A stretch of 14,125 nt of DNA from positions 1 through 14,125 of the forward strand of contig SLDM01000210.1 of the NCBI GenBank assembly GCA_007125255.1, read 5' to 3'. Shown one piece after another: positions 356 through 14,125 of the stretch. The position numbers were made by a program, and so were the translations under genes. Position 1 is the first letter of the stretch; the number at the start of each line of letters is the position of its first letter. The stretch is from Phycisphaerales bacterium. Lineage in GTDB: Bacteria; Planctomycetota; Phycisphaerae; Phycisphaerales; SM1A02. The notes beneath the pieces are model-generated. The model was given only the letters and a program-made list of their open reading frames with translations. It did no database searches and was not told the origin of the DNA.

Positions 356-974
356 CCTCTCGTCGTGGTTCCCTCCCGCACTGAATCACGACGGGCTACC
401 GCGACGTGGCCGCGACATGCAATCAGCGAACGGAGGGCATGCACGGGACATCTTTGGGACTCCCAGGGAGATCCGTTGAAAAGTGCATGACGAGTCTGAA
501 GCAGAGGCCCGAAATGGTCTGGTGGGTGCCTGGTCGAGCGTGATCAGCCAGCTTGAACTTCCATTTCGGGTTTCCAATCGGCGTTGAGTTGGTGCGTGCG
601 TCGGCGAGGGTCAGCGGATCGATCGAATTCAATCCGGCATCGCTGTGGAGTCTGCATCGCAAGGCGGTGCCTCCTCGGGTGGTTCCTCGGACGAGTTCGT
701 TCATCAGCCCCGGCAGGAGTGCTTTTCACTCCGGTCTCCCTCTTGCTTGGCCGAACACCCCTTCAGGAGCTCTTCCGCCGTGAGTGGAGTGCTCCCTCGG
801 CCTCCCGGTGGTGGAGGCATGTCGCAGGCTCTTGGCTGGTCTGTCCCGATCGCGATTCTTCGCCGGGAGGTGAAGTACCGGGAGAGGGACAGGACGACGT
901 TCGCCGGAAGGGATGCTGCCTGCCGTTGTATTGGTTGGTTCGTCTGAAACGGAAAAGGTGGCGAAGGAAGAAGA

Positions 975-1006
975 AGGACGAGGAGAAGGAAGGACGAGGA
1001 GAAGGA
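975..1006 (+). repeat. Perfect 16-bp tandem repeat, two copies, purine-rich
   Basis: AGGACGAGGAGAAGGA occurs at 975-990 and again, identically, at 991-1006. It forms the end of a purine-rich tract (about 950-1008) just before the terminator of the RNA. Each copy contains AGGAG and AAGGA, both Shine-Dalgarno-like. Confidence 0.85.
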
Positions 1007-1008
1007 TC

Positions 1009-1052
1009 GGTCCGCTTTGCTTTCAAGAGCAAGGCGGACCACTTCGTTTTTT
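1009..1052 (+). terminator. Rho-independent terminator of the ncRNA
   Basis: GGTCCGCTTTGCT (1009-1021) pairs with AGCAAGGCGGACC (1028-1040) as a 13-bp stem with one G-U and a 6-nt loop. A six-T run follows at 1047-1052, six bases after the stem. Its plus-strand orientation fits only a transcript coming from the left. Confidence 0.8.
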
Positions 1053-1852: not shown

Positions 1853-1916
1853 CGCGAGCGGCGGAGGGCGGGATGATTTTCGCGCGGGACGGGCCGCTTT
1901 CGGTTGGCCCTGGACG

Positions 1917-1934
1917 TGGCCATACACATGGCCA
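1917..1934. promoter_or_regulatory. Inverted repeat in the phosphorylase 5' region, operator-like
   Basis: TGGCCAT (1917-1923) and ATGGCCA (1928-1934) are perfect inverted arms around a 4-nt spacer. The same sequence also reads as a 12-bp direct repeat (1917-1928 and 1929-1940, one mismatch in the last base). It sits in the 95-bp gap between the upstream gene's stop (1948) and the phosphorylase start (1852), where a repressor site or an RNA hairpin could act. The regulator is unknown. Confidence 0.4.
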
Positions 1935-1947
1935 TACACGCAGCGAG

Positions 1948-2361
1948 TTACGGATGGCGGTGATCGTGAAGCGGCACGAGCATGTACTTCTTCGGCGCCT
2001 CGAACTCCGCGTCGCGGAGCGGGATCTCGGGAAACCACTCGCTGACCTGTTCCTCGCTCAAGAGAACACCGAGCTCGCGGCCATCAATACGATCGTAGAT
2101 CGAGTATCGCGGCTCCCGCGCTGTCGCGTAGATCTTCACCAGGTAGCAGGAGTCTTCCAGCGTGCCGATCCGGGCGAGGCCATCGTGGGGATCGACGGAC
2201 GCGAACTCCCCTTCAGGATGCACGTCGTTCTCGGCATCCGGAGGGAAGCTCGGCACGCCCTGGGAGTCGAAAGGCACAAAGACGCTGGCCATGGCGATGA
2301 AGGCGACGCCGCAGGCCAGGATCGTCAGAACACGTTGCAGTCGGAGGCGTGGAGTGCTCAT
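1948..2361 (-). CDS. Small single-pass membrane-anchored protein, function unknown
   Basis: The protein has 137 residues. After a short basic start (MSTPRLRLQR) comes one hydrophobic helix (about 11-30), then a soluble domain of about 100 residues that is probably outside the inner membrane. The soluble part contains SCYLVKIYATAREPRYSIYDRIDGRELG in pieces that suggest a compact beta-rich fold, followed by LSEEQVSEWFPEIPL. I do not recognise the family. ATG 2361 is chosen because AGGA lies 5 nt upstream and the membrane helix follows directly; the extension to 2469 would run into the tRNA on the other strand. The gene lies 95 bp upstream of the phosphorylase in the same direction and may share its transcript. 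A cleavable signal peptide is possible, but no clear cleavage site is seen. Confidence 0.7.
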   Translation of the reverse strand: MSTPRLRLQRVLTILACGVAFIAMASVFVPFDSQGVPSFPPDAENDVHPEGEFASVDPHDGLARIGTLEDSCYLVKIYATAREPRYSIYDRIDGRELGVLLSEEQVSEWFPEIPLRDAEFEAPKKYMLVPLHDHRHP

Positions 2362-2719: not shown

Positions 2720-3502
2720 TTATTCGTGACGCCAGTCGCCGGCGAGTTCGCCGATGTACCGTCCGACCAGCCCCTCCTCCCGGAAAACCTCGGCGTGCGG
2801 CATGACCGGGTTCTTCAGCACCCCTTCCAGGTGCGGGCGGACCCGTTCTCTCATCATCGCCTGCTGCTGGGCGATCGGGAGCGTGGCGTCGATCACCTTG
2901 AGGTCGTATTCACTCGTCATCTGATCGTACTGTTCGAGAATGCGACCCTGGAACAGTTCAAAGCTCTTGTAGGGATCCTCGCTCAGCCCGAGGTCCATGC
3001 CGGCTTCGTAATATTTCAGTTCCGGTCGGCCGGAAAGGATCCGGCTCAGCGCTTCCTGCAGCGGCACGCGGAAGTAGAAGGCGACGGTCGGCCGGGGTGC
3101 GAAGCGATAGTTGCGCCGCACGTACGTCGGGTCAATTCCGCGGGCCACGTCGCGGGCGAACGCGGTGTAGATGTAACGGTCCGCGAGCACGATCGCGCCC
3201 GCGCGCAGCGGGGGCAGGATGGTCCGTTCCAGGCGATCGGCGAAGTCGGCGGTGTGAATCAGACTGAACGTCATGGGACTGAGCAGACGCTTGGCCTTGC
3301 CGTAGCCGGTGGTCTCGCGAACCAGCGGCGAAGAGTTCCATGCGCTGAAGTACACGCTGTAACCCTGCGAGGAGAGCCACTTCTCCAGGAGATCGAGCTG
3401 GGTACTCTTTCCCGAGCCGTCAATCCCTTCCACGACAATGAGCTTGCCGGGCAGATCGCCGAGGTTCGCGTACTGTTCAAATTCCTGGCTTACGTGCGTC
3501 AT
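2720..3502 (-). CDS. Thymidylate-kinase-like P-loop kinase 1
   Basis: The 260-residue protein belongs to the P-loop kinase fold nearest thymidylate kinase. A strong Walker A, GIDGSGKST (26-34), is preceded by the strand KLIVVE. LADRYIYTAFARD (107-118) matches the DRY-x-x-S-x-A motif of dTMP kinases. RPTVAFYFRVPLQEALSRI (137-155) matches the C-terminal beta-strand plus LID approach. The dTMP-binding REPGG motif expected after Walker A is missing (the region reads FSAWNSSPLVRETTGYGKA), so a canonical dTMP kinase role is doubtful. Catalysis of some phosphoryl transfer is likely because Walker A is intact. It is the last gene of the CHAD-Ppx unit, 66 bp after the Ppx stop. ATG 3502 is chosen; a TTG at 3565 would add 21 residues with no conserved content. 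Confidence 0.85.
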   Translation of the reverse strand: MTHVSQEFEQYANLGDLPGKLIVVEGIDGSGKSTQLDLLEKWLSSQGYSVYFSAWNSSPLVRETTGYGKAKRLLSPMTFSLIHTADFADRLERTILPPLRAGAIVLADRYIYTAFARDVARGIDPTYVRRNYRFAPRPTVAFYFRVPLQEALSRILSGRPELKYYEAGMDLGLSEDPYKSFELFQGRILEQYDQMTSEYDLKVIDATLPIAQQQAMMRERVRPHLEGVLKNPVMPHAEVFREEGLVGRYIGELAGDWRHE

Positions 3503-3568
3503 GGGGGACGATTCCGCTGGGTGAGTGGCCCCGGCATTTCTGCGCGGGTGACCTGGTGGCGTCAACGT

Positions 3569-5248
3569 TTACGGAGACTCTTCGCTGGCGCTGGCGCGGG
3601 GACGGGGACCGGATGCGCGGGCCGGGGCTGATCCCGTGCCGGCAACCGCTTCCCATTCGAAGCGGCAATCCAGCCCGAAAACGCGTTCAAACAGACGGCT
3701 CTTGCGCGACGCGCCCCAGATGTCCACGACCGGATCGGTCTCCGCGGCGACAAAGAACCAGGCGGTGGCGGACTTCACTTCAACGCGCACGCTTTGTACG
3801 AATTGCGAGTGCGCCCGGTCCAGCCCGTCCGCCAGACGCAGAATGGCCACCAGGGCTTTGACGAGCCCGCGTTCCTCGGCGTTCAGTTTCACGAAGTTCA
3901 TGTGCTTTCGTTTCGGACGGGCCCGGCGATGGTAGCGGGCGATGTTGGCGACCAGTTCCAGCTCCCGGTGCGTGAAGCCGGGCAGATCGCTGTGCATGAT
4001 CAGGTGATACGAGTGCTTGTGGTGCCGGGCGTAGTTGATGTAGTACCCGATATCGTGCAGGATCGCGGCGACGTGAAGCAGTTCCCGGGCTTCGGATTGG
4101 GCCCACGGCGCCGAAGGTGCATCGAGGGCTTCGACCAGCTGGTCGAAGATCGAAAGGGTCAACCGAGCGACGTGTTCACTGTGCGGCTCATCGTACTTGC
4201 ATGCCGCGGCGAACTGACGGGCGGTGCGGGCGCGATCCGCCGGAAGCGCTCCGACCGGCTCGGCCCGGGGAACCATCTCCTGAATCGTTTCCAGGATCAG
4301 CCCGTCGCGAATACCGCGATCGTGAACCCGGAGCGTGTTGACGCCAAGGTACTTCATGAGCCGCTCGATGATCGCGATCCCGGCCACGATGATCTCCGCG
4401 CGATCCGGGCTGAGTCCGGGGATCCGGGCTCGTTCCCGCACGGGCATGGCGCTGAGCCAGCGAAAGATGTGCCGGATCTCCGAACGCTTGATTTCGTATC
4501 CCCGGAGGGTGAAGGGATGCGTATCGCCCTGCGGGGCGATGCTGTTTTTCTGGAAGGAGAGGTTGGCGAGCGCGGTGAAGGTTCCGCCGGTTCCGAACAT
4601 GATCTGCGGTTTGACGTCGGGTTTGCCGAGCCCCGCCTTGATCATCCGCGAGATACTGCGCCGAAGGCCCTTGAGGCGCACCTCCAGCGGTTCCGTTCCG
4701 CTTTCGAGCTGCTCGGTCAGCCGGACCGCACCGATCGGCAGCGTCCCGATCTGTTCGATGACGCCGCCCGCGGTCAGAACGACCTCGGTGCTTCCCCCTC
4801 CGATGTCGACCACCGCCGCGGCGCCGAACGGCCGAAGGTCAAAGGCATGGCTCACGCTCAGGAACGCAAGGCGCGCTTCCTCCTCCGCGGTGATCACTTC
4901 GGGAGTCAGACCGGCCCGATCCTCGAGCAGTTTGACGAACTCATCCCGGTTGCGGGCTTCGCGAACGGCGGACGTGCCCACGGCCCGCACCCGGACAATG
5001 CCGTACCCTTCCGCGATCTCCCGCATGCGGGCCACGACCTCGACGGTCTGGTCCATCGCGTCCGGTTGGAGGTTGCCGGTTTCGTTCAGTCCCCGCCCCA
5101 GCCGCGTGACCTCCTTCTCGTCGTCGATCATGCGGTAGCGCCCGTCCTCGGCAACTTCGACCACGATCAGCCGGACGCTGTTGGTGCCGATATCGATCGC
5201 AGCAAGGCGCTGAGCGGTCTCGACCGGTTCCGCGGACAATGCGTTCAT
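3569..5248 (-). CDS. ppx: Exopolyphosphatase / guanosine pentaphosphate phosphatase (Ppx/GppA) with C-terminal HD domain
   Basis: The 559-residue protein matches full-length Ppx/GppA enzymes, which remove terminal phosphate from polyphosphate or hydrolyse pppGpp. The ASKHA-fold N-terminal half shows the phosphate-1 loop AIDIGTNSVRL (17-27), the catalytic Glu region TAEEEARLAFL (120-130), the phosphate-2 loop VVDIGGGSTE (147-156) and GTGGT (219-223). The C-terminal half is HD-type helical: SEHVARL (357-363), AILHDIG (395-401) and RLADGLDR (471-478). A Pro/Ala/Ser-rich tail ends the protein. The ATG at 5248 overlaps the CHAD stop by one base (TGATG), and AGGA lies about 11 nt upstream, so translation is probably coupled; a GTG one codon earlier is possible. 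Ppx versus GppA specificity cannot be told from sequence alone, but the CHAD neighbour favours polyphosphate. Confidence 0.95.
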   Translation of the reverse strand: MNALSAEPVETAQRLAAIDIGTNSVRLIVVEVAEDGRYRMIDDEKEVTRLGRGLNETGNLQPDAMDQTVEVVARMREIAEGYGIVRVRAVGTSAVREARNRDEFVKLLEDRAGLTPEVITAEEEARLAFLSVSHAFDLRPFGAAAVVDIGGGSTEVVLTAGGVIEQIGTLPIGAVRLTEQLESGTEPLEVRLKGLRRSISRMIKAGLGKPDVKPQIMFGTGGTFTALANLSFQKNSIAPQGDTHPFTLRGYEIKRSEIRHIFRWLSAMPVRERARIPGLSPDRAEIIVAGIAIIERLMKYLGVNTLRVHDRGIRDGLILETIQEMVPRAEPVGALPADRARTARQFAAACKYDEPHSEHVARLTLSIFDQLVEALDAPSAPWAQSEARELLHVAAILHDIGYYINYARHHKHSYHLIMHSDLPGFTHRELELVANIARYHRRARPKRKHMNFVKLNAEERGLVKALVAILRLADGLDRAHSQFVQSVRVEVKSATAWFFVAAETDPVVDIWGASRKSRLFERVFGLDCRFEWEAVAGTGSAPARASGPRPRASASEESP

Positions 5249-6375
5249 CACGGATCATCCTTCTTCTCACCGGCACGCGCGGAAGAAGAGGCCAGGGAAG
5301 TGGCGCCGCCGGCGGACCCGTTGCGGCCCGAAGGACCTGGTTCCGCGCCGGGATCCGGAGATGCGTCCGGCGAAAGAAGACGGCGAAGATCACCCAGCAA
5401 CTCATCGAGCCCGAACTCACCGAACCACGCCCGGAACGTCTTGACGTGATCGGCCTGGTGACGCTCGAAACGGCTGCGCAGGCTCTCCAACTGCGAGATC
5501 ATCTGCGTGATCTCGTGATCCTCCACCTGACGCAGGGCGCGGAGGGCGGGTTTCCGGCCTTCGGCCAGTTCATCGGCGTAGCGATTGAGCTGATCGATGA
5601 TTTCCGACGTATCGTTGATGTCGCCCAGGCGTTCCTGCAACGCTTCAACGCGCGGGTAGACCTCCTGGCGGAAGGAAGGGCCGAAGCAGGAAGCAAACAG
5701 CTCCATGCCGTAGCGCAGCCGCTTGATCTTGATGCGCAGTTCATGGAGATTCGTGACGATGGAGAGATCGTCGCGGCCGGCGGACTCCGTGCGATCAACC
5801 AGGCGACCGAGTTCAATTCGCGCCAGATCATGCAGGGTCGTTTCGGCCTGCGGCGATGAGGGCGGCACGTCATCCGGGCCGGGTGACGAGAGGCCCTTGA
5901 TCAATCTGCGGTGCTTGCGACTCAGTCGACTGCCCCGGTAGCGCCGGGTGACCTTGTCCACGTCTTCCTGCGCTTCGCCGCGTTCATCGAGAATGCGCTG
6001 CAGGACATACTGAAGGGCTTCCTGTTCGTGCTGCTCCGCCCGATCAACCTCGCCGGCGAAGATTCCCGCATGAACATCGCAGAGTCGCGCGCCGCCCGCC
6101 GCGCGGCGAATCCGGCGGACATGCTTGCGCATCCTCCGATACTTCTTCTCACGCAGGCACGGCCGAAAGACCATGAGCGCCGCTTCGTAGCGCCGCGTCG
6201 AGACGCGCAGCTGGTGGATGACCCGGGGATGGTCCCCGTCGCCATCGCGGGCAAGCGGCAGCATCGTACAGATGCCGTCGAGCCGGACCGAGAGCACGCG
6301 TTCAGCGGCTTCGGTGACCGGCATGGACGCGTCCAGATCGTCCACCCACTTTCCCGGGGCTCTGGGAACTTTCAC
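5248..6375 (-). CDS. CHAD-domain protein (polyphosphate-binding, putative)
   Basis: The 375-residue alpha-helical protein has the two-repeat signature of CHAD (conserved histidine alpha-helical domain). Repeat 1 is HQLRVSTRRYEAAL (54-67) and repeat 2 is HELRIKIKRLRYGMELF (211-227). The conserved His and Arg/Lys line a basic groove, and CHAD proteins are known to bind inorganic polyphosphate and to sit on polyphosphate granules. A basic stretch (78-98, many Arg/Lys) and an acidic/Pro/Gly-rich C-terminal tail (about 335-375) flank the core. The GTG start at 6375 overlaps the upstream kinase stop by four bases (GTGA) and has GGGAGG six nt upstream. Together with the following ppx gene this suggests a protein that places the phosphatase on polyphosphate. 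That is inference. Confidence 0.93.
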   Translation of the reverse strand: MKVPRAPGKWVDDLDASMPVTEAAERVLSVRLDGICTMLPLARDGDGDHPRVIHQLRVSTRRYEAALMVFRPCLREKKYRRMRKHVRRIRRAAGGARLCDVHAGIFAGEVDRAEQHEQEALQYVLQRILDERGEAQEDVDKVTRRYRGSRLSRKHRRLIKGLSSPGPDDVPPSSPQAETTLHDLARIELGRLVDRTESAGRDDLSIVTNLHELRIKIKRLRYGMELFASCFGPSFRQEVYPRVEALQERLGDINDTSEIIDQLNRYADELAEGRKPALRALRQVEDHEITQMISQLESLRSRFERHQADHVKTFRAWFGEFGLDELLGDLRRLLSPDASPDPGAEPGPSGRNGSAGGATSLASSSARAGEKKDDP

Positions 6376-7142
6376 GCGGTGCCTCCCTGCATGCTCGAGA
6401 CCACCTCGCTGACACCGGCTTTGAGATCTCGAAAAACCGGAAGCACGTCCCGGTTCGCGTCGATCACCGTGAACTCCCGAGTTGCGGCAAGCTCATCAAA
6501 GATCCTGAGCAGTCGCGTCTGGTAGCGCACGAAGGACTCGTAGGTATCCGTCTCCTCCTGGCAGTCCAGGCCGGACTCCCAGTAATCGAACCCGCCCTTG
6601 GCGAGCACCCGCGGGGTCAGGTGTTCCACGTCAATCTTCAGATAAAAGATGGCATGTGGCGCCGGGGCGAAGGCATAGACCTGCCGTATCCACTCCGCGT
6701 CGCCTCCCCGGGCGATCGATCGCGCCATCGCCGAATAGATGTACCGGTCGGTGAGAACGACGAAGCCGGCTCGAAGGGCGGGCAGGATCTGGTTTTCCAT
6801 GCGATCGGCAAAATCGGTCGCGTAGAACAGGTCCATCGTCTGCCGGCCCAGCGTGTGCCCCTGTTTGGCCTTGCGCAGGCCTTCACCCACCAGCCGGGAA
6901 CGCGTCAGCGCGGTATGCGCCACGCCGTATCCGCGCGCCTCCAGCCATTCGCGAAGCAGCGCCATCTGCGTCGATCGGCCGGCGCCATCCGTCCCCTCGA
7001 CGACGATCAGCCGGCCGGGATACCGGGCGATATCCACCGGGCCGGCCCCGCTCGGGCGGAGCTCTGATTCCGAGGGCACCGAACTGCCGCGAAACCCCAT
7101 TTCGTCAAACGAGATCAGTGTTTCGGCCATGGATTGCGTCAC
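6372..7142 (-). CDS. Thymidylate-kinase-like P-loop protein 2, with K-to-R Walker A
   Basis: The 256-residue paralogue of the kinase at 2720-3502 opens with an extra N-terminal segment of about 40 residues. The core shows RLIVVEGTDGAGRSTQ (44-59), DLFYATDFADRMENQILPALRAG (104-126, very close to the paralogue), VLTDRYIYSAMARSIARG (129-146) and APHAIFYLKIDVEHLTPRVL (161-180). The Walker A Lys is Arg (codon CGA), which usually impairs ATP binding, so the protein may be regulatory, weakly active or adapted. The REPGG motif of true dTMP kinases is absent. The GTG start at 7142 has AGGAG eight nt upstream; the in-frame ATG at 7130 lacks a well-placed site. It is the first gene of the four-gene unit, 125 bp after the MBL gene, and a short AT-rich island near 7250-7260 may hold the promoter. 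Confidence 0.85.
   Translation of the reverse strand: MTQSMAETLISFDEMGFRGSSVPSESELRPSGAGPVDIARYPGRLIVVEGTDGAGRSTQMALLREWLEARGYGVAHTALTRSRLVGEGLRKAKQGHTLGRQTMDLFYATDFADRMENQILPALRAGFVVLTDRYIYSAMARSIARGGDAEWIRQVYAFAPAPHAIFYLKIDVEHLTPRVLAKGGFDYWESGLDCQEETDTYESFVRYQTRLLRIFDELAATREFTVIDANRDVLPVFRDLKAGVSEVVSSMQGGTA
6382..6387 (-). promoter_or_regulatory. Ribosome binding site deciding the CHAD GTG start
   Basis: On the minus strand GGGAGG lies six bases before GTG 6375. This supports initiation at the GTG that overlaps the upstream stop, rather than at the in-frame ATG 6324. Confidence 0.75.
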
Positions 7143-7267: not shown

Positions 7268-8017
7268 CTAATTCGGCTGTGGCAGCACGTCACCCGGCCG
7301 CAGGACATGCATGCTCGTGGAAGTCGGATCGAAATCATCGGGCAGGTGGATGAGGTGGATCCGCCGGCGGAGATCCTGCGGCAGATCCTCCAGTTCTTCG
7401 ATCGGCGTATGCGCGGGCCCCCGATTGCATTCGTGCACGACGAGACCGGCCGCGCTCAGCCAATCGACATGGTCACCTTCAAACGGCGTGTCCCCCGACC
7501 AGCCGATGATTCGTTCCTGATCCCGGAAGCGCAGACCGATCGTCGGAATCGGGTGTCTGGTAAATCGGCAGGACACCTCGATGCCGGCAATCTCGCGCGG
7601 CTCGTCGGGGTCGAGCAGTTGCACCTCGAAGTAGTCCGCCAGGGTGCTCCGGCGCCCATCGGCCATGGGGGAGTCCATCGCCGGCGCGAGGCGTTCCCAG
7701 AGGCGGTCCGCGACCGGCTGGGGGCAGTGGATGCGCGGGAGGGGAAGGTCACCGCCCTGGGCGCGGGTCATTCGGCGGAGGAACCCGAACGATTCCAGCC
7801 CGTTGCAGTGGTCGCCGTGCAGGTGCGTGAGGACGATGTCGTGAATGTCGTGGGCATCGACCTGCCATCCGGCCCGGCGACTCGCCTCGGCGATCACGCG
7901 ATGAATCGGATCGGGGCAGTCAATCAGCACCAGCCCCGAGTCGGAGCGCAGAAGTCCGCTGCTGCCAAAGTGCTTGCGCGTAAACGCGTCACCGACGCCG
8001 AGAATGAGAAGTTCCAT
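7268..8017 (-). CDS. Metallo-beta-lactamase-fold hydrolase, RNase Z-like
   Basis: The 249-residue protein shows the metal-site signature HLHGDH (65-70) after IVLT. Further ligands expected for this fold can be placed: His155 in TRHPIPT, Asp176 in WSGDTPF, and His221 or His224 in HLIHLPDD. The N-terminal strand MELLILGVGDAFT is typical of the tRNase Z/arylsulfatase-like branch of MBL hydrolases. Length is shorter than tRNase Z (about 300), and no exosite arm is obvious, so the substrate is unassigned. The ATG at 8017 is chosen because homology-like sequence begins there; the upstream extension to 8278 overlaps the divergent promoter region. Lower similarity to lactonase or phosphodiesterase branches is possible. 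It lies upstream of the kinase operon in the same direction but with a 125-bp gap, so co-transcription is uncertain. Confidence 0.85.
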   Translation of the reverse strand: MELLILGVGDAFTRKHFGSSGLLRSDSGLVLIDCPDPIHRVIAEASRRAGWQVDAHDIHDIVLTHLHGDHCNGLESFGFLRRMTRAQGGDLPLPRIHCPQPVADRLWERLAPAMDSPMADGRRSTLADYFEVQLLDPDEPREIAGIEVSCRFTRHPIPTIGLRFRDQERIIGWSGDTPFEGDHVDWLSAAGLVVHECNRGPAHTPIEELEDLPQDLRRRIHLIHLPDDFDPTSTSMHVLRPGDVLPQPN

Positions 8018-8157
8018 GGTCCGCACCGTTCCGGGATTGGGGCTCACGTGGGTTCGACTCGTGAAGAGCATATCGGATGATCTGCTCTCGGGGGCGTCGC
8101 GGTGAACCGGGCGCCGCGCGACGGGGCCGCAAGAGCCACGGAGCATCGGGCGAATGA

Positions 8158-8191
8158 TTGACAGCCCGCACCCGATCTGACAAGGTATGCC
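8158..8191 (+). promoter_or_regulatory. Possible promoter in the divergent gap before the outer-membrane gene
   Basis: A perfect TTGACA lies at 8158-8163 in the 241-bp gap between the divergent MBL gene and the beta-barrel gene. The best downstream -10-like sequence is TATGCC (8186-8191), but the 22-bp spacing is too long. The closer hexamers are poor, so the assignment rests on the -35 match alone. Confidence 0.3.
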
Positions 8192-8258
8192 GCACTGATC
8201 CGCGACGGTTCGGAAGTGGCCACCCATCCACACGACGAAAAAAGCGAGAGACGCCGTG

Positions 8259-10371: not shown

Positions 10372-10507
10372 AACCGGCTGACCGGCCGATCCGTTGCGAC
10401 CCGGCTGCGTATTCTCTAGGAAGCCTGTTGTGGAGCGCGGGCATGATCACTTCCGGTTGCTCGAAGCCGATGGTTCGAAACTGCTCGCACGGAGAAGGAA
10501 TGACGAC

Positions 10508-11842
10508 ATGAAACATCTGACCAAACGATGGCAAGGGCTCACCTGGTGCGCATGCATTCTCGGCGCCGCCACGCTCGCGCATGCCAACGTCGCGCCGGAT
10601 CCCGCGGCTGACGATGAGGCCGCCGATGAGACCGCCGCGACCGTGGACCCGCCGACCGTGCGGGAGATGGGCGAGCTTGCCGAGGAAGTGCTTCGGGCCG
10701 CGGAGGCGTTGAGCGCGGAAGCCCGCGCGATCGCCGAGCCGCTGGAGGAAGGAGAGCAGCGCGTCCTGCAGGCGGTGGTCATGAACGTTACCGGCCGCGC
10801 GCAGTGGCGCGAGGACGCGGAGTCACCCTGGCGAAACGCGGAGATCGACGACGTCTTGAGTCCCGGCGCGATGATCCGAACCGGCGGGCGGGCGCGGCTG
10901 ACGTTGCGCGTCGGAAAGAACGCGACCGTCCAGATCGATCGCAACACCCGCCTGAGTCTGCCGGAGATCGTGCAGGAAGGAGCGACGCTGCGCACCCGGG
11001 CCGGGATCGAGCGCGGCCGCGCTGACTTCAAGGTCGATGAGATCGGCCTGAGAAACGACTTCACCGTCACCTCGCCCTCCACGACCCTCGCCGTCCGGGG
11101 CACCGGTTTCGGCCTGCGCTACGGCGGACTTGACGGGACGCAGGTCGTCGCGGCCCGAACCAACGAGATGGCTTCGATCGAGCTGACCTACTTCCTCTCC
11201 CGGGTCACGGTCCTCCTCTCCGGGGCCGCCATCTCCAGTGACCGGCAGCAGAACCCGGTCCTGGCCGCCCTGTTCCAGACCGTCGGCCCGCCCGCCGCCT
11301 TCACCGCCGCGATGGAAGATGCCGAGATGGTGGACGCGCTGGCCGATGCGTTTGAGCGCAACCCGATTGTCGATCTGCGCCAGGTCGATGTCACGCTCGC
11401 CTCGGTCCAGGATACGCTCAACCTTCCCGTACTGACCGGACCGGCTGATTCCCCGCCCGTCGATGGCTTTGTGCCGATCGATCTGCCAACCTTCAATGGC
11501 GAGCTCTTCACGCTGATCGTCGGATTCGTCTGCCAGCAACTCGGGCAGACCTTTGAATCGTTTGAGTCCGGCCTGATTCAAGCGGAACTGATCACCACGG
11601 TTCCGCAGGAGTTCGGGCAGGCCTTCGATAACATCATGGCGATCTGTGATGCATCGGAAACCTACACCGAGTCGGACTGGATCGGGATCTTCGACGAGAT
11701 CATCACCTTCTGCCAGTCGATCGCCAGCAACCAGGAACAGGTCAATCTCTGCGTCAACATCTTCGGTGACGCGCTGAGCGAGCAGTTCCAGTCCGGCGCG
11801 TTCGAGCAGTACATTCTCGACAATCTCGATCTGCCCCAGTGA
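10508..11842 (+). CDS. Exported FecR-domain protein
   Basis: The 444-residue protein has a Sec-type signal peptide (LTWCACILGAATLAHA, likely cut after Ala26). An acidic, Ala-rich helical stretch (30-85) follows. A FecR-type beta domain (about 88-215) contains VVMNVTGRAQW, LSPGAMIRTGGRARLTLR, NRNTRLSLPEI-like strands (143-155), and FTVTSPSTTLAVRGTGFGL (185-203). FecR domains occur in periplasmic anti-sigma regulators and in many exported sensor or structural proteins. The C-terminal half (about 240-444) is helical and acidic, with Cys at 342, 380, 402 and 415, which could form two disulfides. ATG 10508 is chosen because GGAG and AAGGA lie about 9-15 nt upstream and the signal peptide starts there. 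It precedes the CHASE2 cyclase by 138 bp. No sigma-factor gene is seen, so the anti-sigma role is unsupported. Confidence 0.85.
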   Translation: MKHLTKRWQGLTWCACILGAATLAHANVAPDPAADDEAADETAATVDPPTVREMGELAEEVLRAAEALSAEARAIAEPLEEGEQRVLQAVVMNVTGRAQWREDAESPWRNAEIDDVLSPGAMIRTGGRARLTLRVGKNATVQIDRNTRLSLPEIVQEGATLRTRAGIERGRADFKVDEIGLRNDFTVTSPSTTLAVRGTGFGLRYGGLDGTQVVAARTNEMASIELTYFLSRVTVLLSGAAISSDRQQNPVLAALFQTVGPPAAFTAAMEDAEMVDALADAFERNPIVDLRQVDVTLASVQDTLNLPVLTGPADSPPVDGFVPIDLPTFNGELFTLIVGFVCQQLGQTFESFESGLIQAELITTVPQEFGQAFDNIMAICDASETYTESDWIGIFDEIITFCQSIASNQEQVNLCVNIFGDALSEQFQSGAFEQYILDNLDLPQ

Positions 11843-11980
11843 TCGGCGGTGACCCCGGTCGGTCCGGCGCGACTCGATCCCGCGATCGGCGGGCCTTTCC
11901 CGCTGCGCGAGGGTAGCGCCCCGCCGCTTTGCCGCCGCAGCGGACGCCGGAACGCAGACCAGAACGTATGATGGACCGCC

Positions 11981-14125
11981 ATGCCCCGCGCGACTCCGTT
12001 GACGTTGGCCGTCGGTCTGCTTCTGACCGCAGCACTGCTGACGATCGAGGTCTGGTCGGGCTCGGATCGCGACTCTCCCTGGGAACGCTGGTCCATCAAC
12101 ATGCGGTTTGTACACGCTCCCCGCGCGGACCGGGCGATGAGCCGGGATATCGTGCACGTCGATATCGACGATGGGGCGCTCAAGGCCGTGGGGCGCTGGC
12201 CGTGGGACCGCGCAACCCTGGCCGACGCGATCGACGAGTTGGCCGAAGCGGGAGCGGGCGCGATCGCGCTGGATCTTCTCTTCAGTGAACCCCAGGAGAA
12301 CAGCGATTCCGATCAGCGCCTCTTCCGCGCTATCCAGCGCGTCCCCGCCGTCGTCGCGCTGCATCTGACCGAATCCGACGACCGGCCGGCACCGTGGAGA
12401 GAGCCCGCCCTTGCCGGTGAGTGGAAGCGGATGATGGACGTCCTTTCGCAGGACATCCGTCAGGAGATCTCCTTCGTTGTCGAAGCGGCGGCGGTCGCTC
12501 CGGAACGCCGACACGTGGCGGCCGCCCTGGCGATGACGATCAAGGAACACGCGGTTGATCACGCCGCCCGGAACCTGAAGCAGGTACACGACGGCGAGCT
12601 CACCTTCGAAGTGCTGCTTGACACTCTTGCCCCGGACCGGCCGGAACATCTCCGCTCATTCCCCGAGCGGCGCCTGATCGAGTATCGCTGGCACCAACTC
12701 CGCGCCTGGCAGGCGGTGCGGCCGCACCTCCGGCGTGCGGAGCACTTCGGTCGTGCCAACGACGCGGCTCCGATCCCCGACATTGCCGGGGCCGCCGCCG
12801 CCGCGGGTTTCGTCAACGAACTTCCCGATGCCGACGGGCGCAAGCGCAGCTACGCCCCGACGTTGCCGGCACCGGGGGGAGACGCGCTGCCCTTCGGCCT
12901 CGCCGCCGCGGCGCTTTACCGGGGCATCGATCCCGGTGACGTGGTGGTGAAGGAGGATGCCATCGGCATCGGCGCGGTGACGCTTCCGCTGCACAACGGC
13001 CGGCTCTGGATCGACTGGCCGGCGCCGCCCGCCGACGCCCCGCGTGAGTATCGCTGGTTGCACGTGACGCGGCAGGATGAGAGCGACCGGGTCGGCACCG
13101 GGCACCTCTCCATCGCCGTGCCGGTCGGGCTGGCCGAGCAGCGGCGCGGGCACGAGAGCAATGTGGAAACCTTTCTCGAACTCTCCCGGACGATTGCGCA
13201 GTACGCGCAGCTCCCGGACGATGAGCTGGCGTACGTGGCCGGCCGACCGCTCGACGACTGGTCCGACGCGCTGGAACAGGTCCGCGACGAGGTCGAGTTC
13301 ACGCTCATGGATGGTGTCGATCCCGCTTCGATCGACGATGAGGCGTTTCGCCGGCACGTGGAGCTCTGCCGGCTCTGGGAAGCGGCGGAGACCACGGTCC
13401 GGCACGGTGAAGCGAGAGTCGCAGAGACCGAAGCGGAACTGCGCGAGCTGGTGGAGGATCGGCTCGTTTTCATCGGCTGGACCGCGACCGGCGCGCTCGC
13501 CGACTTCGTGCTGACACCGCTCGGGCCTTCAACGCCGGGTGTCGTCGTTCATGCGGCGACCGCGGACATGGCGCTGACCGGCGCCGCGGTTCGATTTCTG
13601 CCGCGGTGGAGCGAACTGTTCATTCTGGTCATCGTGGGCCTGCTCGCGACCGGCATCGCGGCGCTGCTCACGCCGGTCTGGTCCGTTGCGATCTTCCTCC
13701 TGGTGGCGATCGGCTACGGCGGGCTCAACATCGCCCTCTTCGCGCAGGGTGACTGGCTGGTCCCCCTCGCCGGCCCCCTCGGCGCGATGACGATCATCTG
13801 GGTCGCGAGCATGGCCACCGAAGCGGCGATCTACCAGCGTGAGCGCAGCCGCATCACCCGGCAGTTTCGCGCACGCGTCTCCGCGCAGCTCGTCGACTAT
13901 CTCGTGGAGAATCCCGGCGCGCTCTCCGTCGGCGGCCAGCAGCGGGAGATCACCATCCTCTTCGCCGACCTCGCCGGCTTCACGCGGCTCACCGAATCGC
14001 TGGGCAGCGAAGCCACCGTGAAAGCGCTCAACACCGCGCTCGGGGAGCTGACCGATGAACTCATCGCGCACGATGCGTACGTCAACAAGTTCCTCGGCGA
14101 CGGCGTCATGGCCTTCTGGTCCGCA
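11981..14125 (+). CDS. CHASE2-domain class III adenylate/guanylate cyclase (3' end outside window)
   Basis: There are 715 codons without a stop to the window edge. A first membrane helix (about 8-24) leads into an extracytoplasmic CHASE2 sensor: IVHVDIDDGALKAVGRWPWDRA (57-78), GAGAIALDLLFSEP (91-104), IAGAAAAAGFVNELPDADGRKR (268-289) and LVFIGWTATGALADFVLTPLG (495-515) followed by PGVVVHA. Three membrane helices follow (about 545-565, 568-588 and 593-612). A class III cyclase domain then starts near 651, with EITILFADLAGFTRL (656-670), whose Asp662 is a metal ligand, and NKFLGDGVMAFW (702-713), whose Asp707 is the second. It makes cAMP or cGMP; the specificity residues lie beyond the edge. 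The CHASE2 part carries two apparent insertions of about 130 residues each. The ATG 11981 is the only plausible start, and the two ATGs just before are out of frame. Confidence 0.9.
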   Translation, partial: MPRATPLTLAVGLLLTAALLTIEVWSGSDRDSPWERWSINMRFVHAPRADRAMSRDIVHVDIDDGALKAVGRWPWDRATLADAIDELAEAGAGAIALDLLFSEPQENSDSDQRLFRAIQRVPAVVALHLTESDDRPAPWREPALAGEWKRMMDVLSQDIRQEISFVVEAAAVAPERRHVAAALAMTIKEHAVDHAARNLKQVHDGELTFEVLLDTLAPDRPEHLRSFPERRLIEYRWHQLRAWQAVRPHLRRAEHFGRANDAAPIPDIAGAAAAAGFVNELPDADGRKRSYAPTLPAPGGDALPFGLAAAALYRGIDPGDVVVKEDAIGIGAVTLPLHNGRLWIDWPAPPADAPREYRWLHVTRQDESDRVGTGHLSIAVPVGLAEQRRGHESNVETFLELSRTIAQYAQLPDDELAYVAGRPLDDWSDALEQVRDEVEFTLMDGVDPASIDDEAFRRHVELCRLWEAAETTVRHGEARVAETEAELRELVEDRLVFIGWTATGALADFVLTPLGPSTPGVVVHAATADMALTGAAVRFLPRWSELFILVIVGLLATGIAALLTPVWSVAIFLLVAIGYGGLNIALFAQGDWLVPLAGPLGAMTIIWVASMATEAAIYQRERSRITRQFRARVSAQLVDYLVENPGALSVGGQQREITILFADLAGFTRLTESLGSEATVKALNTALGELTDELIAHDAYVNKFLGDGVMAFWSA

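Follow-up and report, generated by a model that had tools for sequence, protein, structure and literature searches.

Positions 361–1052 on the plus strand of the window form, with a probability that we put at about 85%, one stand-alone non-coding RNA gene of 692 nt, which belongs to an undescribed and lineage-limited family within one Phycisphaerales family. The window, that is, the whole stretch of DNA analysed, is one entire contig (C80) of 14,125 bases; its genome, G000, spans 2.59 Mb, is 63% complete, and holds one copy of the gene. Comparison with related sequences supported descent from a common ancestor at a single locus, in all three genus genomes as well as in one genome of a sister genus; it also supported a kept promoter, kept secondary structure and the lack of coding. 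We infer that the RNA is transcribed and that its terminator is functional.

Promoter, terminator and parts of the predicted gene

A first-pass annotation of this DNA had given the RNA its own extended −10 promoter with a start at about 361, and had placed a terminal helix exactly there; both proposals held up. The promoter, TGTGGTAAAAT (TGG-TAAAAT), lies at 345–355 on the plus strand. The sequence TGTGGTAMAATT was kept in 3/3 genomes of the genus, where it always precedes the 5′ conserved word by 49 nt (start to start), and degenerate forms of the promoter were present in G033, which represents a sister genus, and in G023. A promoter scan that required a −35 box had no entry for the 345–355 site, and no good −35 was seen by eye. 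At the predicted start stands a 5′ terminal hairpin of 11 bp (361–393, plus strand, with 361–371 paired to 383–393). This segment folded at −14.1 kcal/mol versus −6.1 ± 2.3 kcal/mol for shuffles (P = 0.002), and hairpins of differing sequence occupied the same position in the two other genomes of the genus, G001 (P = 0.004) and G002 (P = 0.002).

The RNA contains two near-invariant words, GGCTACCGCGAYGTGGC and AGGACGACGTTCGCCGGAAGGGA. The 5′ word, GGCTACCGCGACGTGGC, is 17 nt long (394–410, plus strand) and showed 0 changes in G001, 1 in G002 and 3 mismatches in G033; the 3′ core, AGGACGACGTTCGCCGGAAGGGA, is 23 nt long (891–913, plus strand) and identical in all three genus genomes. The remaining parts, all on the plus strand, were mostly predicted stems. 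A hairpin CATGCAC/GTGCATG with an inner stem is predicted at 438–489, and a comparable hairpin appeared at a comparable place in the G001 and G002 folds. The stem CCCGAAATGG/CCATTTCGGG at 508–570 (508–517/561–570) has 10/10 pairs and no alignable counterpart established in relatives. A long-range stem (401–420/817–836) and an imperfect hairpin directly 5′ of the core (841–892, with 841–864 facing 869–892) are each 75% paired. The core is followed by a hairpin at 921–963 (921–927/957–963), which corresponds to a TGCCATCG-type stem in G001 and G002 and of which the window keeps 7 of 8 modelled pairs, and then by a GGA-rich polypurine stretch at 964–1008, where GGAGGAGAAGGA is kept in the genus.

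The intrinsic terminator that was said to end the unit at 1052 was upheld in part. Its feature occupies 1009–1052 on the plus strand, with a 14-bp stem at 1009–1040 that was present in both siblings, had both-sided changes at 3 of 14 pairs among the three genomes, and kept its GGTCCGC foot throughout the genus. Against this, a spacer separates the stem from the T-run at 1046–1052, and the T-tracts of G001 and G002 were poor. Terminator-like stems numbered 11 in the window versus 9.0 ± 3.0 in shuffles, so that shuffled sequence has them no less often. Because such stems are frequent in shuffles, the promoter was not listed by the scan, and the single-sequence fold of the window RNA (−302.6 kcal/mol) gave z = −2.3 (20 shuffles), the elements of the window are weak evidence when taken alone.

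Homologues within the genus, conserved structure and neighbours

A DNA search of 101 genomes returned matches in 9/101. Besides G000, only G001 and G002 proved homologous, both with a 26-nt match, and the remaining matches included six on or near the polypurine stretch. The G001 and G002 loci are syntenic with the window, each with a convergent phosphorylase gene 3′ of the RNA, and the G002 contig, which reaches further, also keeps the tRNA-Glu and thymidylate kinase genes. Apart from the kept promoter sequence, the two words, the kept polypurine motif and the terminator foot, the window RNA is mostly hardly alignable to its siblings, which are shorter: about 520 nt in G001 (trimmed 510) and about 580 nt in G002 (trimmed 573).

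The G001 and G002 RNAs were compared with each other, and their identity was 0.785 (517 aligned columns, 71 gap columns). In 40-nt windows, identity was 0.82–0.93 near both RNA ends, with most values of the end modules at 0.85–0.93, and 0.53–0.74 in mid-RNA. Outside the RNA it was 0.60–0.72 directly 5′ of the promoter, 0.35–0.55 in the middle of the upstream spacer (G001 2160–2400) and 0.48 downstream of the RNA, and the flanking genes had values of 0.85 (sugar-kinase-like, named by eye) and 0.80 (phosphorylase). The block of conservation is bounded by the promoter and the terminator stem. In both siblings the RNA 5′ end, CGGCGAAC, is complementary to GUUCGCCG of the invariant core and paired with it in single-sequence folds, and this same end can alternatively form the local 5′ hairpin. 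A switch or a long-range closure would be a possible meaning of the predicted pairing, which was absent from the two-sequence consensus fold; the 5′ end of the window RNA differs in sequence.

The earlier view of the region as a structured RNA was strengthened by these comparisons. The consensus fold of G001 and G002 reached −156.9 kcal/mol versus −123.2 ± 6.6 kcal/mol in 40 shuffles, which preserve column class and not dinucleotides (z = −5.1); the genus sample consists of three close sequences. The value was z = −4.3 without the terminator and z = −4.8 in an earlier run with 60 shuffles. Compensatory pairs numbered 12 versus 6.5 ± 2.4 expected, and the maximum in 40 shuffles was 11. Three control regions gave z = 0.1 (upstream spacer), 0.5 (kinase-like gene) and −1.2 (phosphorylase). 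The reverse complement of the RNA also scored z = −4.8, with 9 compensatory pairs; the strand therefore rests on the promoter, the terminator and the lower energy.

The region had further been described as free of any credible open reading frame. The lack of coding was borne out, and the lack of open frames was not: several overlap the RNA in the window, and the longest on the plus strand runs from 584 to 1309 (241 codons), past the terminator. Open frames alone decide nothing here, because in both the window and G002 the invariant 3′ core falls within open frames of several phases. Substitutions between the G001 and G002 RNAs were spread evenly over the codon phases (39/40/32, P = 0.60), versus 29/22/74 and 71/27/41 in the two flanking genes (P = 5e-9 and 2e-5). 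On this evidence we rejected a protein gene at 361–1052. It is very improbable, and largely refuted, that there is no RNA gene here at all and that the region is either a protein gene, decayed or not recognised as such, or a GC-rich spacer with chance structure. The overlapping open frames, the commonness of terminator-like stems and the single-sequence z of only −2.3 would fit that account, but it is opposed by the flat codon phase, by a fold signal in G001/G002 versus none in three control regions, and by a conservation block delimited by promoter and terminator stem.

The neighbouring gene at 1124–1822 on the minus strand encodes a PNP_UDP_1 phosphorylase (PF01048, 54.2 bits); it is a convergent neighbour and not part of the RNA, and it adjoins the RNA in G000, G001, G002 and G033. 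This arrangement, convergent and with short gaps in all four genomes, together with the poor T-tracts of the siblings, would suit a cis effect, in which the phosphorylase gene is damped when the RNA is transcribed and transcription runs on through its weak terminator. We consider such an effect unlikely: the phosphorylase gene of G023 has the opposite orientation, and damping of this kind would not require kept sequence words.

Other features were seen near these loci. At 2723–7118 of the window, on the minus strand, two thymidylate-kinase-like genes (PF02223) flank Ppx/GppA-HD and CHAD genes. An MBL-fold protein is encoded at 7271–8197, also on the minus strand, and scored 42.7 bits with the Anti-Pycsar Apyc1 profile, below the cut-off of 50. 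A FecR-domain gene, followed by a CHASE2 and cyclase-like gene that is truncated by the contig end, lies at 10454–14125. In G023, a long GGACACGGACGCGG-type tandem repeat, noticed by eye, directly precedes the phosphorylase gene (L229, about 990–1230).

A second conserved element adjoins the RNA on the opposite strand in G001 and G002, outside the window (L176, about 1895–2085, minus strand, in G001; L177, 3476–3671, plus strand, in G002; both in alignment A4). It was found in 57/181 genomes and 26/45 genera, mostly via its last 65 nt, and it combines a terminator hairpin with a near-invariant loop, GGAAGUGUCGGAGCGU, and a GGCCTTCGGGCC-type hairpin. A promoter-like pair, TTGACC ... TACTGT, stands upstream of it in most aligned genomes, and the element is perhaps a small RNA (sRNA) of about 100 nt. 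It had no Rfam match at E up to 10 in G001 or up to 1 at seven other loci.

Relatives beyond the genus and known RNA families

The homologue found outside the genus was in G033, where the same locus, between the putative small sRNA and the phosphorylase gene, holds a shorter RNA of about 390 nt (trimmed 393). Its promoter and 5′ word together had 6/28 mismatches to the genus sequence (shuffle P = 0.003; the best of 110 null sequences had 9), and a core-like word had 4/17 mismatches (P = 0.08). A polypurine run is also present, and TTTT follows a strong GC stem. Its 5′ hairpin was not significant versus shuffles (P = 0.6), and a terminator scan with loops limited to 8 listed none at this locus.

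Weaker candidates were seen elsewhere. That of G023 is about 220 nt long (trimmed 222), with P = 0.06 and 0.11; a 5′ hairpin of its own sequence stands in the same place (P = 0.011), and its best core match in the genus-word test, with 4 mismatches, differs from the choice made by eye, with 6. The G022 candidate is about 120 nt long (trimmed 121); its core reached P = 0.007 and its 5′ word was not found. The G014 candidate is weaker than both (core P = 0.13), and in G036 and G041 just 67 and 57 nt were left within the limits that we set. The test with genus-only words comprised 24 tests in 12 regions, three of which gave P ≤ 0.007: the promoter and 5′ word of G033, the core of G022, and the core of G038, where the match adjoins a different gene. 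The patterns used for the candidate scans were shaped after viewing G023, G022 and partly G033, and are circular for these genomes.

Wider searches were anchored on sequence, on structure and on neighbours. A 21-nt core with ≤3 mismatches occurred at 45 places in 181 genomes, and the 41 outside the genus equalled the reversed control (41); among the loci examined after this search, none outside the genus had the 5′ word at ≤3 mismatches. Two covariance models, R1 and R2, gave convincing matches over the 181 genomes of the family in the genus only. The best outside matches of R1 were in G015 (25.5 bits, E = 2.6e-4) and G152 (24.6 bits, E = 6.9e-4), and no promoter with 5′ hairpin was found at the loci examined for either model. 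The R2 stem was offset by one column, so that R2 acted nearly as a sequence profile, and its repeated matches in genus g39 resemble coding sequence by eye. An 18-nt core in the named genomes gave 24 stretches, of which 2 were the siblings; the best values among the other 22 were 3/17 mismatches for the 5′ word (L170) and 3/12 for the promoter word. Searches of the 181 genomes with the G001 and G033 RNA DNA added nothing convincing. The phosphorylase gene, used as an anchor, was present in 48/61 genomes, own and siblings counted, and 30 of its loci were scanned, 27 of them outside the genus; the small-sRNA anchor covered 57 genomes and 30 loci, from which 12 regions were taken and 14 sequences aligned. 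We conclude from these comparisons that at least one sister genus has the RNA too, that the RNA evolves quickly, and that, of the genomes seen, only those of this genus have it in a large form. The promoter and the pair of short words close to the ends are kept; a large architecture is not.

The first-pass annotation could not match the RNA to RNase P RNA, tmRNA, SRP RNA or 6S RNA, and our searches agree. Rfam 15 identified a tRNA only over the entire window, and no family at 361–1052. At E up to 10, the region 200–1250 had five matches, all far below cut-offs and dismissed: Atu_C3 (22.7 bits, cut-off 100), HOTTIP_3 (18.2 bits, cut-off 50), SNORD15, CsrC and sR10. RNase P RNA and tmRNA are likewise structured RNAs, with housekeeping roles and a similar order of size, but are separate genes here. 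RNase P RNA is excluded, as both G001 and G002 have RF00010 away from this locus, on different contigs, and no match falls on the RNA. A tmRNA is very unlikely, given a clear RF00023 match on another G001 contig and no Rfam or ARAGORN match at the RNA; G002 had RF00023 matches of 31 bits only, below the cut-off. Neither RF00010 nor RF00023 was found in G000, an incomplete genome. 6S RNA and SRP RNA are excluded solely by the absent Rfam match in the window, G001 and G002.

The RNA had also been compared with the large classes OLE, GOLLD and ROOL, a kinship that our results did not bear out. The likeness is that the RNA is large (520–690 nt), structured and free-standing in this genus, which would agree with an ornate RNA of that sort, forming a ribonucleoprotein or an RNA oligomer. 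However, no Rfam model, those of OLE, GOLLD and ROOL included, matched the RNA of the window, G001 or G002 or the sister-genus loci; no similar record was present among 50,697 phage or 72,556 plasmid records; and the size is not kept outside the genus. Large size is a feature of the genus, with a shorter homologue and shorter candidates elsewhere; the analogy is unsupported, and we regard membership of this kind as improbable. A section of one source (PMC12286853) assigns ROOL and GOLLD to phage and prophage genomes, frequently close to tRNA islands; here a single tRNA-Glu lies 1.4 kb from the RNA, and the setting does not fit. The exact core was not found in viral contigs, and although ten of them had the 17-nt 5′ word, none had the 3′ core at <6 mismatches within 800 nt. 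We rejected a phage or plasmid origin on these results.

The motif Rhodopirellula-1 is likewise a candidate structured RNA listed for Planctomycetes; a table row that assigns it to this group and to Proteobacteria shows no Rfam number for it (PMC2864571). The RNA described here is probably a new family of a known kind, the intergenic structured RNA gene. Our literature searches, which define the scope of this statement, returned no paper on this RNA.

Possible function and significance

As a tentative best guess from sequence, the likeliest mechanism is that of a sponge for a CsrA-type protein. The RNA would act in trans, holding the RNA-binding protein on many GGA motifs; the main sites would lie in the polypurine stretch of the 3′ part and in hairpin loops that carry GGA, and the two conserved end words would form a folded core or a second binding site. 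We considered this idea because the 3′ part is purine-rich and GGA-dense. Each of the three genus RNAs contained 26 GGA, versus shuffle expectations of 19.9, 18.6 and 21.5 (z = 1.9, 2.6 and 1.4; P = 0.043, 0.020 and 0.10, the last for G002). Elsewhere the same comparison gave P = 0.009 in G023, 0.34 in G033 and 0.51 in G022, so that G002, G033 and G022 had no significant excess, and the combined value over five lineages was P = 0.003, with G023 and G022 among them only candidates. The positive control, csrB, had 22 GGA versus 14.7 expected (z = 3.1), and RNase P RNAs and tmRNA of the genus had no excess (z = −0.1 to 0.5). CsrA (PF02599) had 2–3 matches each in G000, G001 and G002 and was present in 9/10 genomes examined, including all three of the genus.

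The RNA resembles CsrB, CsrC and RsmZ in its many GGA, some in predicted loops, in the terminator at its end and in the CsrA genes of the same genomes. In the minimum free energy folds, each of six RNAs had at least one GGA-bearing hairpin loop; examples are a GUGGAG loop shared by G001 and G002 and, in G033 and G023, the loop of the terminator. The differences count against the sponge. The RNA falls below the Rfam cut-off, with 11.1 bits for CsrC against a cut-off of 61 and no listed match to another model of this group, and its GGA are not preferentially unpaired: their accessibility did not exceed that of other purine triplets in the genus RNAs (0.26 v 0.41, 0.48 v 0.50, 0.44 v 0.50), unlike csrB in the same computation (0.80 v 0.66). 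The conserved words are unexplained by GGA, the 5′ word contains none, and CsrA also occurs in genomes where the RNA was not found.

A trans-acting antisense regulator is a possible, if doubtful, alternative to the CsrA sponge. The 3′ core, and perhaps the 5′ word, would be seeds for mRNA pairing, and the variable middle would be a scaffold. This would account for the concentration of the strongest conservation in two short words, of 23 and 17 nt, amid sequence that has mostly turned over. Against it, the neighbouring small sRNA, the sole partner tested, paired with the core better than did shuffles in only some genomes: G001, G002 and G023 exceeded them, at z of about −2.2 to −2.7, and G033 and G022 did not.

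The evolutionary evidence for the gene, drawn from few genomes, is clear, and its defined locus shows where further copies can be sought; few papers on planctomycete non-coding RNA appeared in our literature searches. CsrA-binding RNAs are usually studied in groups other than Planctomycetota, and the RNA is a concrete candidate for one. Because its homologues and candidates differ in length, they could be used to trace how a large RNA grows. On a bolder and rather doubtful reading, the gene would represent a new regulatory RNA class of Planctomycetota: the ancestral RNA would have been short, with fixed modules at its two ends, and in one genus it would have gained a large, rapidly evolving structured middle that perhaps serves CsrA or some other protein as a binding platform. 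If true, this would make the RNA a test case of how small RNAs turn into large ornate ones.
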